From IMG/VR virus record IMGVR_UViG_3300026484_000087, positions 1 to 64,000 of that record: 64,000 nt of DNA; one strand, 5' to 3'. Positions 4,142 through 12,918 of the stretch are shown one piece after another. The position numbers were made by a program, and so were the translations under genes. The DNA comes from a virus. The notes beneath the pieces are model-generated. The model was given only the letters and a program-made list of their open reading frames with translations, was not told the origin of the DNA and did not search any database. Numbering within the stretch: the first letter of the stretch is position 1; every line of letters starts with the position of its first letter.

Positions 4142-5653
4142 ATATTCTTCTATAAAGATATTTTTACTTTTACTTTTGAATAATTCTATTCTTGATTTAT
4201 GATATTCATATTGTTTCTCTATATCTTTTGTATAGAAATAATAGAATCTCATATCTCGACCTTCTTTCTTACGCAACCTACCTAAAGCCTGTAGATTAGC
4301 CTGTTTAGATTTCATAGAGATTGTCTGTATAACAGTTATCAAACCCTTAATATCTACTGCTGTACCAGCTGAAAGAACCGTAGTTACAACCATATCAGCA
4401 GTTTGTAGATTTTCATATGGATCATCTTCCACGTATCTATTTATACTAAGATAATCATACTTTGTTTTAAAATACTCTGTTAACATAGTACAAAACTCTA
4501 TACTAGATGCAAATATTATTATCTTATCCCCATCTTTTCTTCTATCCAGGTATCCAACCTTAATATAGTTGCATATCATATCAACATAGTTTCTAAGTTG
4601 AATACTATGTCTCATTATGGATTGTTCAAACCCTATATGAGTATAACCCATACTACCGACAGCCCTAATACGCTTAGCATTTTCTATAGTATACTGCACT
4701 GCATGTATATCTATATACTTATCGTATTCTATGTTAGCTAACTTTGATTTAACTGGGAATAAAGCTCTATAAAATTTACCTACGCTTTCATTATCGGTTT
4801 CAAGTGTAGCTGACATACCTATAAAATGTTCTACGTTAAAATACAAACTTGCCTTATAAACACTAAAAAATTCTTGATGTACCTCATCTATTAATAGCGT
4901 ACCTATACCAAAAGTTTCCATAAGCAATGATGGTACCACTGGATAAATAAAATCATCCATATCTTTAAGACTTTCGTATGCTTTTATATAAAGATAGATT
5001 GTTCTGTTACTAAAAATTACAACTTTAGGAATGTATTCTCCAGAGATAGCCATCTCTGTAGCCAAGATAAGATCCTTACTCCCTCTTATAACTAAAATGT
5101 CATCATCTTTAATATCGGTTTTTTCTTTAAGCTCCTCTATCCATTTATCAATATATTTTGGAAGTATAAGAATAGCAGTAGCTTTATTTATAGCACACAT
5201 ACTACTTATAGAAATCATTCCTTTGCCTTTACCAGTCTGATGATCTATCAGTTTAGTAGGAGTACTATCATCCTTAACTATTCTAGTAAAAGCCTTTTCT
5301 TGGTAATCCCTGAGTATGTATTCTGATTTAAGATTTATATCTAATCTATTAGTCTTGAATGTTTCTTCTCTAACTATATTAATGTTATCACGATTAACAC
5401 TATACATTTTAAGCATCCACATAAAATCTTTAACAAAATTAATATTAAATCTATATTCGTTAAAATTATGATTTCCTCCAACGAATATCTTATCAAGCTC
5501 TCTTACTTTTCTTCTCTTCTTTGGATTATATACCAATCTAAAAGTATAGAACTTCTTCATTATAAAATCACGCAGTAGTCTCTTAGCATTAGGAGACTCA
5601 ACGTATACTGTGAAGAAATTCTTACTTACCATAATCATATATTCGTGTTTCAT
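4127..5653 (-). CDS. superfamily 2 DNA/RNA helicase
   Basis: A 508-aa SF2 helicase. It has LRDYQ at 114-118 (Q motif), QTGKGKGM at 139-146 (Walker A-like), LLIDEVH at 253-259 (motif II, DEVH), SAT at 281-283 (motif III) and QALGRLR at 455-461 (motif VI arginines). The organisation resembles UvsW/DEAD-type phage helicases that unwind branched DNA or remodel RNA. It lies directly downstream of the nvRNAP beta-prime C-terminal gene, as I recall for phiKZ-like phages. The substrate is not determinable here. Confidence 0.85.
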   Translation of the reverse strand: MKHEYMIMVSKNFFTVYVESPNAKRLLRDFIMKKFYTFRLVYNPKKRRKVRELDKIFVGGNHNFNEYRFNINFVKDFMWMLKMYSVNRDNINIVREETFKTNRLDINLKSEYILRDYQEKAFTRIVKDDSTPTKLIDHQTGKGKGMISISSMCAINKATAILILPKYIDKWIEELKEKTDIKDDDILVIRGSKDLILATEMAISGEYIPKVVIFSNRTIYLYIKAYESLKDMDDFIYPVVPSLLMETFGIGTLLIDEVHQEFFSVYKASLYFNVEHFIGMSATLETDNESVGKFYRALFPVKSKLANIEYDKYIDIHAVQYTIENAKRIRAVGSMGYTHIGFEQSIMRHSIQLRNYVDMICNYIKVGYLDRRKDGDKIIIFASSIEFCTMLTEYFKTKYDYLSINRYVEDDPYENLQTADMVVTTVLSAGTAVDIKGLITVIQTISMKSKQANLQALGRLRKKEGRDMRFYYFYTKDIEKQYEYHKSRIELFKSKSKNIFIEEYNKKI

Positions 5654-5675
5654 TTCATCTCCTACACTATTTTTT

Positions 5676-7706
5676 TTATTTTAAAGCATTTAAAACCTCA
5701 TTTGGTTTTAATAGAACATCTAACAAGTGGTCTGGTTTATTAGTATCTGTAAATAAACCTGGCGTCAGTATCTTACCAGATAAGTTATCATAACCATAAC
5801 TAGCACCAGCTGAACGTTTATCTATTACTGTAAGCAACGGAGATAATTGAACGTTTTCACTGTTTCTACCTAAATCATAATTACCATTAGGTAAGTCGTA
5901 TACAGTAAATGCGTATACTACCACTTCAAACAAAGCAATATTAACATCAAGTTTACTATTAACTAAAGTGAATACTTTTGACAATAACGATTCTGGACTA
6001 TCTTTAGATACACCGCCTTTAAGGATGGACATTGTTTTAAACATATCCTTAGTATCTTTAGATAAGGCTAAGAAACTAAATTCAACTTCTGGTAACTTTA
6101 ATATAGGAGTAATAAATTTCCAATTACTCATATCCACTATGTAGTTATCATACTCATCTGCTTCATACCCATTCTCTATAATATAATTAAGGAACTTAAG
6201 TTCAAACACACCATATCTATTACCAAGTCTTATAGGCAATTCATAATGTTCAACATTACCCTTATACTCATACCTAACTATAATAGTCTCTAACCTACTA
6301 ACCCTACCTGGATCAATAATATTTATAGATTTGTCCATCTTTATATCTTTAAGACCAAAACATTCTTCCTGCTTAAAGATAAGCGATACCTTAGCATTCT
6401 TCTTAGCCAGAACTTGAGGTCTTATAACATAACCATTTTTATCTTTAATTACAAAGAACTTCTTAGCATCATCATTAAGCTCTATCGTATTAGATGTAGC
6501 TGATGTAACAAGGTGTTTAGTAGATAAGATAGATTGTGATATTTTAGCATTTATCTCAGTACTACAAAGATGTCCTAAGTTAGAGTGTTTAGGTATAGAA
6601 TATGCTAACTCCCCAAAACACTTAGAGCATATTTGTTTCTTATTAGGTAATTTACATTTTATAGCTGAACGAAGTTTTATTGTTTTACCATATAAATGTT
6701 TCATATCCGTAGTTATAGCTACTAACTCGTTAGTAGTTTCATCTAGATAATACTTACCTTCTAACTTGTTTAAATCACCTTTATAAATAGTTTCACCACT
6801 TACTGATTTCTCTACCGGTTTAACATACCAATCAAGATAGTCAGTGCTACCACAATCCCCAAAAACTATATCCTCAACTACCATAGTAGCCAACTGTAGT
6901 TCTCTACCAAAATATTCAGAATCCTGAATAGCCTTATTAGATAAGAATAATGCTTTTGCACCAGATCTACTATCAGCAGCTAATTCATACATGTTAGCCA
7001 TACCCATGGTAAATGATGAGCTAATAGGATATTTAAAAATAGAACTATCAAGTTCTGTAACATAACCTCTTGGACCAAGAACCTGTTTCATTTGGTTAGC
7101 ATTAACCATACCAGATATATATGCCTTAACAACTGGATTATTTAGAAGATCTTTATCGTTACGCATAATATGATCTAATAGATTATAAGTAACATCAATA
7201 GCATTAACGTTCATTTCATCTGACACTCTGGCCATTGATTTCATTAAATCCTCTTTTAACTGTATATCTAAAAGATCCTTTATATTCATAGACATAACGT
7301 GTTCTGTTATATTATAGCTAAATTCAGAATATAAGGTTTCAACTATCTTATATAAACTATAATATGTATATGCTAATTGTTTATGAACATCTTTACCATT
7401 TACTTTTATAACATTATTAATAAGATCATTTAATATTTCAGATAAAAACTTAGTATGCGATTTACCAGTATACATATCATTAGTGTAAAAGTTACGTATA
7501 TTATATTTTGATACTAATTTAATATCCTTATTAAGATTTGCCATCTCCCAGAAATATCTGGATATAATGACCTCTCTACTGTACATTCTTACACAGATAT
7601 TGTCTTCAAACATAACATTTACATAACCTGTAATATTATTAAGAATATCTAGCGGTTTATAATTTAGAAAATCTCTTACCAATACTGCTGTTTCTTTTTT
7701 ACCCAT
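5676..7706 (-). CDS. RNA polymerase beta-prime subunit, C-terminal part (non-virion RNAP)
   Basis: A 676-aa C-terminal portion of a bacterial-type beta-prime subunit. Residues 205-290 align with the bridge-helix region (VLGPRGYVTELDSS...ADSRSGAKALFLSNKA). Cysteines C285, C351, C360 and C363 form the second zinc site of beta-prime. Residues 378-400 correspond to the GEAVGxxAAQSIGEP/trigger-loop start. phiKZ-like phages split beta-prime in this way, and the position beside the helicase and the beta C-terminal gene fits the non-virion enzyme that transcribes later genes. The gene has a conserved AT box plus leader hairpin upstream (7731-7776). Confidence 0.9.
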   Translation of the reverse strand: MGKKETAVLVRDFLNYKPLDILNNITGYVNVMFEDNICVRMYSREVIISRYFWEMANLNKDIKLVSKYNIRNFYTNDMYTGKSHTKFLSEILNDLINNVIKVNGKDVHKQLAYTYYSLYKIVETLYSEFSYNITEHVMSMNIKDLLDIQLKEDLMKSMARVSDEMNVNAIDVTYNLLDHIMRNDKDLLNNPVVKAYISGMVNANQMKQVLGPRGYVTELDSSIFKYPISSSFTMGMANMYELAADSRSGAKALFLSNKAIQDSEYFGRELQLATMVVEDIVFGDCGSTDYLDWYVKPVEKSVSGETIYKGDLNKLEGKYYLDETTNELVAITTDMKHLYGKTIKLRSAIKCKLPNKKQICSKCFGELAYSIPKHSNLGHLCSTEINAKISQSILSTKHLVTSATSNTIELNDDAKKFFVIKDKNGYVIRPQVLAKKNAKVSLIFKQEECFGLKDIKMDKSINIIDPGRVSRLETIIVRYEYKGNVEHYELPIRLGNRYGVFELKFLNYIIENGYEADEYDNYIVDMSNWKFITPILKLPEVEFSFLALSKDTKDMFKTMSILKGGVSKDSPESLLSKVFTLVNSKLDVNIALFEVVVYAFTVYDLPNGNYDLGRNSENVQLSPLLTVIDKRSAGASYGYDNLSGKILTPGLFTDTNKPDHLLDVLLKPNEVLNALK

Positions 7707-9898: not shown

Positions 9899-10831
9899 TT
9901 ATACATTATGCATGACATCAGTATCTGATTTATGTACCATCTCAATACCAGCACAGTTATATAAACTATTAACTATTTCTAATGCCTTATCTTGTCCATA
10001 TGGAACTTCATCTCTATTTATAACCCTAGGTATATTAGTTGGATTCTCTGCAGTAAGTATGTTTTTATACATATTCTCATGTGCTTTAATAGAGGAACCT
10101 CTATCTTTAAGTTCTGCTAAGAACTCTTCACCAACATAACTTGCATATAGCCTAGACTCGGTTTCAGATAAAACCTTAGTGGCACTGTTTCTCCATGGCA
10201 ATCTATGTTTCTCTGCTTTAGATGTACTTGTAGGTAAACCAAAATGATTTACTTTAGCAGAAGCAGTACTTAACCATGTATCAGCAATCTTAGCCAACAT
10301 CATTATATATAGTGGAGCTATAATTATATCATCTTTAGATTCAACTACACCCTTAACTGTGTTAAATTTAATTTTATCAACAAGAGGTTTAAATCTAGAA
10401 TTATTTAACTCTTCTATAATCTTATAAGCTGGTTTTGAACCAAGTGCGTAATACACATAGAATTCTTTGTCAACTATTTCTTTTAAGATCTCTCTCTTTT
10501 GTGTTAAATTTGTAGCTTTATAAGCACTATACTGTTCTGTACCAACTATTTTTAGATATTCTAATACCGTATTAAATAAGCTATTAACGATATCGGAACT
10601 AAGACCATCTATAGTTGAATCAAGATCATCTAAGTCATCTATATCCATGATGCTATTAGATATCATACGTTTAACTTGTCTAGAAGACTTAGCAATATAT
10701 GCTTCATAAAGTCTACCTATATTCATACGAGAAATAGTAGAGGCTGGATCCGAAATAATATCAGCTCTAGTACCATCTTTATCAACTGGCATATCTTCAT
10801 CTTTTCTAATTTCACATACGATACTTTTTGC
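9899..10831 (-). CDS. RNA polymerase beta subunit C-terminal part, exon 2
   Basis: Exon 2 encodes 310 aa beginning AKSIVCEIRKDEDMP, which aligns with bacterial beta NKGVISKILPVEDMP. It continues with DGTRADIISDPASTISRMNIGRLYEA, matching the [22 protein letters not shown] region (the quoted phage segment is split here only for reading). The first usable in-frame ATG would need intron sequence, so it is not an independent gene. Splicing to exon 1 (ends 11517) restores the motif with no gained or lost codon, giving a ~715-aa nvRNAP beta C-terminal subunit. Confidence 0.88.
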   Translation of the reverse strand, partial: AKSIVCEIRKDEDMPVDKDGTRADIISDPASTISRMNIGRLYEAYIAKSSRQVKRMISNSIMDIDDLDDLDSTIDGLSSDIVNSLFNTVLEYLKIVGTEQYSAYKATNLTQKREILKEIVDKEFYVYYALGSKPAYKIIEELNNSRFKPLVDKIKFNTVKGVVESKDDIIIAPLYIMMLAKIADTWLSTASAKVNHFGLPTSTSKAEKHRLPWRNSATKVLSETESRLYASYVGEEFLAELKDRGSSIKAHENMYKNILTAENPTNIPRVINRDEVPYGQDKALEIVNSLYNCAGIEMVHKSDTDVMHNV

Positions 10832-11516
10832 CTTGGTGTTCAAGTGTAACGCTACTTACACCCCGCGACTCTACTCGCTGCTCCTACCATTACAGTGGAG
10901 GACACAGTTTATAAACTGTGAACATTTTGAACCGACCATATCAATCCTCATCCATTGATGAGGCCCTAACGTTTCGGGTCCGCTTGGATCCCTACTCTGG
11001 AGTAACCAGATGGCCTGTGAACACATACTCTCCTTGTATTAAGGATCACTTTCGTGGTTTAAGGTACTTCGCTGCGTCGATTAGAGCCAGGTAATAGAGT
11101 TTTCACTATGCCTACAGTATCCTTCATTACGGTTGTAGGTATTACAGTATGTTTCCACCTGTAAGTAGTATCTATTACTTTTAACAGCTCCTCCCCGCTA
11201 TTAGAAAGGTTTCATATGTACCTCACGATACATACGGGCTATTTTACATTGATTAAAATAAATATTGTTTATATTCTTTGGGAGTTGCATCTCCTGATAA
11301 AGAATTAAGATGACTATGTGGCGTCTGCTGAAACTCTCCGTGTTCAGGGCATATTAAGGCTATATTCTTTTCACCATGTTTGATTTTAGCTCTCTCTATA
11401 AACCTAAGTCTTAACTTTTCTTTCAATTCATTCCTCCTTTCTAAAAATACCAATGCAATAGTACTTTTAATCTTTTTTATTTTAATCTGTAACCTCGTAT
11501 CCATTACAAGGACTTA
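10832..11516 (-). ncRNA. group I self-splicing intron in the RNAP beta gene
   Basis: A 685-nt intron, notably more GC-rich than the flanks. On the minus strand it shows the four group I core elements in order. P: AATAGCGGGGAGGAGCTG (about 11186-11203). Q: AATCGACGCAGCGAAG (about 11067-11083). R: GTTCACAGGCCATCTGG (about 11006-11022). S: TTGATATGGTCGG (about 10932-10944). R and S form P7 (GGCCAT with ATGGTC). P8-like (CCTCATC/GATGAGG) and P9-like (CACAGTT/AACTGTG) hairpins follow. The 5' exon ends in T and the intron ends in G (ACACCAAG), as expected for group I. The internal guide sequence was not identified with certainty. Confidence 0.88.
11253..11504 (-). pseudogene. decayed intron homing endonuclease fragment
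   Basis: An 83-aa frame inside the intron, upstream of the catalytic core. Residues ~38-68 (RAKIKHGEKNIALICPEHGE then FQQTPHSHL) match the DNA-binding repeat common in phage HNH/GIY-YIG homing enzymes, which normally reads HG-x-KYDYS...KI-I-CPxHGxFxQxPxxHL. About a dozen residues between HGEK and ICPEHG are missing, and no nuclease catalytic domain follows. It is therefore probably inactive, though a short DNA-binding remnant could still be made. Confidence 0.7.
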
Positions 11517-12731
11517 ACCACTAAGATCAGTCAGCTTATACCCTACGCCGGGTAAGTACCTATATTTAATAGTAAACTCTATTCTGTAAATATCCATTGG
11601 ATCATTTCTATAGATCTTCTTAATGTTTCTATCACCTTTTACAATATCAGCATCAGTAATAGCCATTGCGTTGACTAATAGTCTTGTAAACTTAGGACTA
11701 ACTTTGACATTATCATTTCTATATCTTTGTTTATGTTCATCAACTATATTATCGTATACATCAAGTATATCTTTATAATATTGAACTAAAGCTTTAGAAT
11801 ACTTTTTAACTAAACCATCGGTATTACTATAAATCTCTTTTTTACTTTTTGGAGTATGATAAACTTTAATATCTGATACTACTCCTGAACCATCTCTAAC
11901 ATACGTTACCTTATCGAACATAGGATTGAATTCACATATATCTTTAGCACTCATCAATGCTGGGGCTAACTCATCATCATAATCTCTTACGGCAACAATA
12001 GCACCAGACTTATGTATCTTCTCACCTATCTCTGGGAATGGCTTATAATTATCTTTATCGCCATACAGATTTAACATAAAACTATCTGTACCAAACTCAA
12101 CCGTTCTTTTCTCGAAGATCTCTATAGCCATTTTCTCTGCTGTACTCTCAGATATAACTATACCATCCTCAGCTGTTTCATTGATTGTCATCATACAGAT
12201 ATTTAGATTAGCACCAAACTTATATCCATTATTATCACTAACTGCTGGAGATGAAGCCAATACTGTACCCGCCTCAAGTACATCATTGTGTTGAACTTTA
12301 TCAAGTATATCATGATTCCATTTATATCTAAAACCAAAATAGTTATGCATGTTAGAGTTATATGGTAAATCTAGATAGCTAATCTCACCTGTCTTAAGAT
12401 CTTCATAGATAACAATAGCGTCAACCATATGATTAATACTGTTAATATCTATACCATTCTTATATCTAGGTATAATGGAAATTATTCTAGAATCATTAAC
12501 CAGCTTCTTATCAAATGTTTGTCTGCCTAGCTCTCTTTCGATACCAGACTGAATAATCTTCTCATCTCCATTAAGCAATGTTAATGCTTGTGACATATGT
12601 GAGGACAACATAAGTGACCTAGCAGCACTATTATGATTACAAAATGGGTTTACTGCTGTTATACTCGTTAACTCTGGTCTAAGTTTTACTTTAGCAAATG
12701 ATTCTTTTAACGTTATTTTATCACTTTTCAT
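11517..12731 (-). CDS. RNA polymerase beta subunit C-terminal part, exon 1
   Basis: 405 codons from the ATG at 12729-12731, which has GGAGG 7 nt upstream; a longer frame from 12758 lacks a site. GYKFGANLNICMMTINETAEDGIVIS matches the bacterial beta ALGxNxxVAxMPWxGYNxEDAIVIS block (shown as two adjacent pieces in the family). The exon ends at GYKLTDLSG, equivalent to GDKMAGRHG. A stop codon follows directly in the intron, so unspliced RNA gives a truncated protein. It overlaps the end of the small membrane gene upstream by 11 nt. Confidence 0.88.
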
Positions 12732-12918
12732 TATTATCCTCCATTGTACAAGTATCATCGCATATACTTCTTGAATCGATATCCACCAAAATTAGATCTT
12801 TGAACATCATTTTATATTGTCCTTTTGTAGTTATATTCTCATAGATGTCTCGTTCATGCATATATGCAGATAACGTCCATACTAAAGCAATTGCTACTAA
12901 TACTCTTATTGCTTCCAT
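12721..12918 (-). CDS. small membrane-anchored protein
   Basis: A 65-aa protein with one N-terminal hydrophobic segment (VLVAIALVWTLSAYM, residues 7-21) and an acidic C-terminal tail with two Cys. AAGGAG site before the ATG. It is the first gene after the class A promoter leader, and its end overlaps the start of RNAP beta, suggesting translational coupling. Function unknown. Confidence 0.65.
   Translation of the reverse strand: MEAIRVLVAIALVWTLSAYMHERDIYENITTKGQYKMMFKDLILVDIDSRSICDDTCTMEDNNEK

Follow-up and report, generated by a model that had tools for sequence, protein, structure and literature searches.

A predicted group I intron that interrupts the catalytic lysine loop of a jumbo-phage RNA polymerase beta gene, a locus repeatedly occupied by introns in related phages

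The closest described counterpart of the locus analysed in this work is the gp71-73 gene of phage phiKZ. In the purified enzyme gp71-73 is one polypeptide, and a fusion of gp71 and gp73 has been reported (PMC4666361), with conserved lysines at K386 and K394 (PMC8287921). The gene carries a 1218-nt group I intron that contains PHIKZ072 and joins HGG to KGV; no paper describing this intron was found in the literature searched, and older papers may hold one. Chain C of PDB 7ogp, the phiKZ nvRNAP subunit labelled PHIKZ071, has 700 residues, the length of the predicted spliced product. PHIKZ072 has a strong knock-down phenotype and was proposed to be an early takeover nuclease (PMC12571901). Since the polymerase-gene intron encloses PHIKZ072 (phiKZ 64486-65436, L001), the knock-down could act via disturbed polymerase splicing or expression, and the antisense phenotype (PMC12571901) might thus reflect effects on polymerase splicing. 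Another jumbo phage, PhiPA3, has a putative group I intron at conserved residues of an RNAP beta gene, associated with gp210 (Birkholz et al., 2024, PMC11620839).

The gene studied here lies in a stretch of 64,000 nucleotides, hereafter the window, which comprises positions 1 to 64,000 of a 206-kb metagenomic record (IMG/VR IMGVR_UViG_3300026484_000087) from a phiKZ-like jumbo phage; all window features given below are on the minus strand. In the nvRNAP beta C-terminal gene, exon 1 (11517..12758, phiKZ gp71-like) has its likely start methionine at 12728 and was recognized by phrog_3295 (E=3.8e-101) and by tblastn to 281 phage records, while exon 2 (9899..10831, phiKZ gp73-like), whose first residues are A-K-S-I-V-C, matched phrog_3295 and Pfam RNA_pol_Rpb2_6 (E=7.4e-9). 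Between them lies an insert of 685 nt (10832..11516). The reading frame runs to GVGYKLTDLSG, a TAA follows right behind the GGT codon, and after the 685 nt it resumes with AKSIVCEIRKDEDMP. Exon 1 ends in CTTAGTGGT (11517), the insert runs from TAAGTCC to CACCAAG (11516..10832) and exon 2 begins with GCAAAAAGT (10831), giving a 5' splice site GGT^TAAGTCC and a 3' splice site CACCAAG^GCA (the caret marks the junction). The boundaries set out in the preliminary description are exact: removal of the insert keeps the frame, leaves no internal stop and gives 715 residues from the likelier methionine. Among the 698 positions of the phrog_3295 profile, exon 1 covers 9-402 and exon 2 covers 404-695, which leaves a single position (A406) between them. 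When joined, the exons encode a protein that aligned end-to-end with 7ogp chain C (E=9.6e-102), unbroken at the junction, and the active-site lysines K399 and K407 are conserved, K407 being the counterpart of phiKZ K394, in agreement with the published numbering. Full-length match and conserved lysines together identify the product as a phiKZ-type nvRNAP beta C-terminal subunit. The insert is located between G405 and A406 (715-aa numbering), two codons ahead of the catalytic lysine K407, where the HGxKG motif reads SGAKS; the placement in the conserved lysine motif, previously proposed from the sequence, was thus borne out. That competitors would find such a site hard to mutate, as was also suggested, is a reasonable if putative idea.

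The identity of the insert was assessed with a covariance model constructed from five other introns, the window being excluded. This model returned a single match in the 64 kb, covering the catalytic core (10922..11215), with 197.8 bits and E=2e-62; E-values of this model are rough owing to a short calibration, but the margin is very large. The Rfam covariance search that the preliminary description had proposed gave a divided answer: no match in the window reached the gathering score, a curated detection threshold and not a structural feature, and RF00028 applied to the intron stretch alone scored 25 bits (E=4.8e-4) against a gathering score of 50. For relatives at the same locus (L065, L060, phiKZ, L086 and intron 2 of L023) RF00028 gave 72-92 bits. 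The folding energy (z=-2.2) is by itself weak evidence. Both the U ahead of the 5' splice site and the terminal G of the intron are present (GGT^TAAG ... CCAAG^GCA). Base composition differs along the locus, with a G+C content of 0.44 in the intron core (10832-11240), 0.31-0.32 in the exons and 0.30 in the whole window.

The P, Q, R and S core elements, reported earlier as visible, were located by intron alignment together with the P7 pairing. The P3/P4 strand region UAAUAGCGGGGAGG (11190..11203) was placed by the Rfam alignment and by alignment with 16 other introns; the 3' strand of P4, or Q element, CGCAGCGAAG (11067..11076), which is conserved across introns, and the S element GAUAUGGUC (10934..10942) each occur once in the window, and the pattern of the R element GUUCACAGGCCA (11011..11022) occurs three times. 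P7 is formed by GGCCA (11015..11011) and UGGUC (10938..10934). It had been called perfect; it is indeed complete, with five pairs, but one of these is G-U, so not all are Watson-Crick. The P7 3' strand covaries with R in L072 and L086: the window and L072 have GGCCA/UGGUC, L086 has GACCA/UGGUC and the other nvRNAP introns have GACUA/UAGUC. As aligned, the window P7 reads as a two-sided compensatory change relative to the usual pairing, shared with L072 and in part with L086. Five of the seven P3 pairs in the Rfam alignment are standard and two are non-standard. A P8 hairpin, CCUCAUC-aaug-GAUGAGG (10946..10963), was read from the sequence and found in the Rfam alignment, and a 3'-terminal hairpin GUGUAAguagcgUUACAC (10844..10861), placed by alignment, is common to the phiKZ intron. 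Two candidate P7.1/P7.2 hairpins, CUGGuuacuCCAG and GGGaUCCaagcGGAcCC, were read in the sequence between P7 and P3', and judged by them the intron probably belongs to group IA. The best P1 candidate, GUGGU/GUUAC (5 bp), was equalled by 27% of shuffled sequences; since it is not significant against shuffles, no guide sequence is claimed. A P10 pairing was not established either.

We therefore regard it as very likely that the 685-nt insert is a group I intron that interrupts the nvRNAP beta C-terminal gene and is spliced out, the splicing being predicted from sequence. The transcript would fold and be cleaved behind the U of GGU with the help of GTP, and the GGU would then be joined to GCA at the terminal G, restoring the subunit. 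Because the TAA stands directly behind the 5' splice site, unspliced RNA should yield only a truncated protein. A genuinely split gene, in which each exon yields its own polypeptide and the insert is an inactive ribozyme or a spacer, would fit with the division of jumbo-phage RNAP genes at other places and with the in-frame TTG (10843) that precedes exon 2 inside the insert. We consider it highly improbable, since the ribozyme core is conserved with a compensatory change, the break would part K399 from K407 inside the catalytic loop, and phiKZ yields a single 700-aa chain despite an intron just one codon from this position.

The intron of the window retains a degenerate ORF of 83 codons (11253..11504), or 57 codons when counted from the TTG (11426) behind a GGAGG. 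It matched phrog_681 (E=1.4e-4 over 51 residues) and the intron endonuclease of Vibrio phage vB_pir03 (42% over 38 aa), and corresponds only to the zinc-ribbon part of endonuclease families. Domain and phage-family profile searches detected no nuclease domain in it, so that in place of an intact intron-encoded endonuclease only a zinc-ribbon remnant was found. The ORF, which resembles single zinc-ribbon units, is by these matches the remnant of an endonuclease gene, and mobility of this intron copy is not supported. Long members of the zinc-ribbon family are the pir03 endonuclease and the ORF of L023 intron 2 (phrog_559, E=2.6e-50). Long intron ORFs are also present in L059, L060, L065, L068, L069, L072 and phiKZ, with HNH family matches for those of phiKZ and L060, the other long ORFs having been read by eye, and the introns of U5, L035, L066, L081 and L086 contain no ORF above 68 codons. 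The same locus thus hosts unrelated endonucleases or none. We infer that homing most likely brought the intron in together with an endonuclease of the zinc-ribbon family, whose present representatives are in intron 2 of L023 and the pir03 intron, that the endonuclease gene was later lost, and that what remains in the window is probably a passenger that is spliced but no longer mobile.

These results also bear on the earlier proposal that the intron product serves as an interference weapon by cutting the intronless polymerase gene of competitors. PhiPA3 gp210 acts in this way in the virion RNAP gene (PMC11620839), and long nuclease genes of the HNH or zinc-ribbon type are present in related introns at our locus. 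For the window copy we find the proposal very unlikely and unsupported, since only a short zinc-ribbon remnant is kept, with no detectable nuclease domain; phrog_681 has no other match anywhere in the 206-kb record, and the PhiPA3 precedent concerns a different gene, virion RNAP beta, and a different motif. One HNH gene occurs elsewhere in the record, with nothing tying it to the intron site: a 493-aa ORF (record 168494-168622, minus strand; L094:2595-4076) that has, besides its HNH_3 domain, a long C-terminal part that is unrelated. It is apparently free-standing, with no Rfam-detected intron near it, and no GIY-YIG gene was found in the 206-kb record. An intron without nuclease might instead be kept as a shield, its occupancy of the site keeping the endonucleases of co-infecting phages from cutting the gene. 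An intron by definition interrupts its homing site (reviewed in PMC3984707), and the neighbouring sites have been repeatedly invaded by introns with long nuclease genes; however, any insertion would confer such protection as a side effect, and simple decay following homing accounts equally for these facts, so that we hold selection for shielding to be unlikely, if less so than the weapon.

The family precedent invoked in the preliminary description proved to be closer than stated, given the group I intron that phiKZ carries in the same gene one codon away. IMG/VR was scanned with a close set of beta subunits, since an alignment of eight divergent ones was too diverse for this purpose. The scans gave 74 loci, 58 of them without an insert at the site; as the main scan relied on two peptide patterns, intron frequencies are not unbiased. 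Of the 64 relatives placed in a protein tree, 14 carry an intron and 50 have an empty site, a distribution that implies at least 12 gains or losses and does not cluster beyond shuffled data. Such a scattered pattern is the expectation for mobile elements that are gained and lost. With boundaries set by requiring a U before the intron, a G at its end and a preserved frame, three insertion positions were identified within 11 nt. Site B (HG^x) is occupied in the window, L060, L065 and intron 1 of L023; site A (HGx^KG) in phiKZ, L035, L059, L066, L068, L069, L072, L086, intron 2 of L023 and L081 (here with a C ahead of the splice site); and site C, which lies another 8 nt on, in L073 (intron 5164-6760). 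The position of site C is fixed by the intronless twin L044, which is 98.9% identical to L073 over 7.5 kb, the intron being the difference. A single site shared exactly by the window and phiKZ was considered and rejected, as the boundaries are one codon apart.

The closest intron-bearing relative, L023 (IMGVR_UViG_3300028534_000022), is 52% identical in exon 1, and its nvRNAP beta gene carries two tandem group I introns (5162-7440) that fill both neighbouring sites. Intron 1 (5162..5805) ends in AAG and is followed by GCT; intron 2 (5809..7440) ends in AAAAG, with AAAGGGGTG behind it, and scores 73.5 bits with RF00028. The endonuclease ORF of intron 2 is broken by a stop near 6060. Intron 1 is 74% identical to the window intron over 341 nt and has the same 3' end, which identifies it by sequence as the ortholog. 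One intron with an odd boundary was also considered for L023 and dropped, since two cores were found inside the insert, and the tandem reading was adopted. The joined product reads HG-A-KGV, with the alanine placed as in the window, and an exon of 3 nt (GCT, one Ala codon) is predicted between the introns; if true, this single-codon exon would force ordered splicing. Exons of three bases have been reported in fungal mitochondria and one of a single base between two group II introns (PMC12308204), and phage group I introns flanking a small exon have been described, its size not being given in the text consulted (PMC11878797).

Taken together, these data lead us to favour, with some reserve, the view that the lysine loop of jumbo-phage nvRNAP beta is a hotspot, settled repeatedly, 3 and 8 nt apart, by several group I lineages that encode endonucleases of either of two unrelated families or no endonuclease, with two introns at once around a 3-nt exon in one virus, and with the window intron as a leftover that possibly blocks re-invasion. 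Since phiKZ and other giant phages have related introns at this position or a few bases from it, the window intron is of a known kind and its site is one that has been invaded unusually often; the sequences confirm that self-splicing introns recurrently insert into the catalytic lysine loop of jumbo-phage polymerases. What deserves follow-up is the hotspot with its adjacent and doubly filled sites, as the empty-site pair L073/L044 and the doubly occupied L023 make homing-site choice and ordered splicing testable.

A second group I match in the record lies outside the window (138791-139274, minus strand), with 34 bits in Rfam and 34.4 with our model. This intron (L004/L095) has 666 nt and no ORF and is located in a beta'-type polymerase gene, with splice sites GGAGCAGATT^AATTTT...GGCAACG^TTGATGGAGAT. 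Its removal gives a 538-aa protein that matches phrog_2986 over the whole length (E=2.4e-184). The junction restores LGADFDGDKCS, which places the insertion within the codon for F in the catalytic motif DFDGD; NADFDGD is intact in the second beta' gene, which lies inside the window.

Among known systems, phiKZ gp71-73 (PHIKZ071/072/073) shares with the window the gene, the catalytic motif, a group I intron (RF00028, 87.6 bits) with a common 3' terminal domain, and a joined product that is one chain (PDB 7ogp); it differs by insertion one codon downstream (HGG^KG versus SG^AKS), an intact-looking HNH ORF (PHIKZ072) and a shorter P5 region. L023 intron 1 agrees in insertion site, core (74% identical) and 3' end, AAG^GC(T/A), and differs in lacking an ORF and in having a second intron 3 nt later. 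The PhiPA3 gp210 intron, in contrast to that of the window, interrupts the virion RNAP gene after two Asp residues and encodes an HNH nuclease active in interference (PMC11620839). The vB_pir03 intron (MT811961, L002) resembles ours in the P4-P6 region (72% over 151 nt) and its ORF belongs to the zinc-ribbon endonuclease family of the window remnant, whereas this ORF is long and apparently intact (362 aa) and the intron stands behind a different RNAP beta gene; at L002:3829-5380 the related core and the endonuclease lie directly downstream of that other beta ORF. Finally, the group I introns of Bastillevirinae also occupy essential phage genes and include pairs around a small exon, although they reside in ribonucleotide reductase, DNA polymerase and terminase genes and not in RNAP (PMC11878797).
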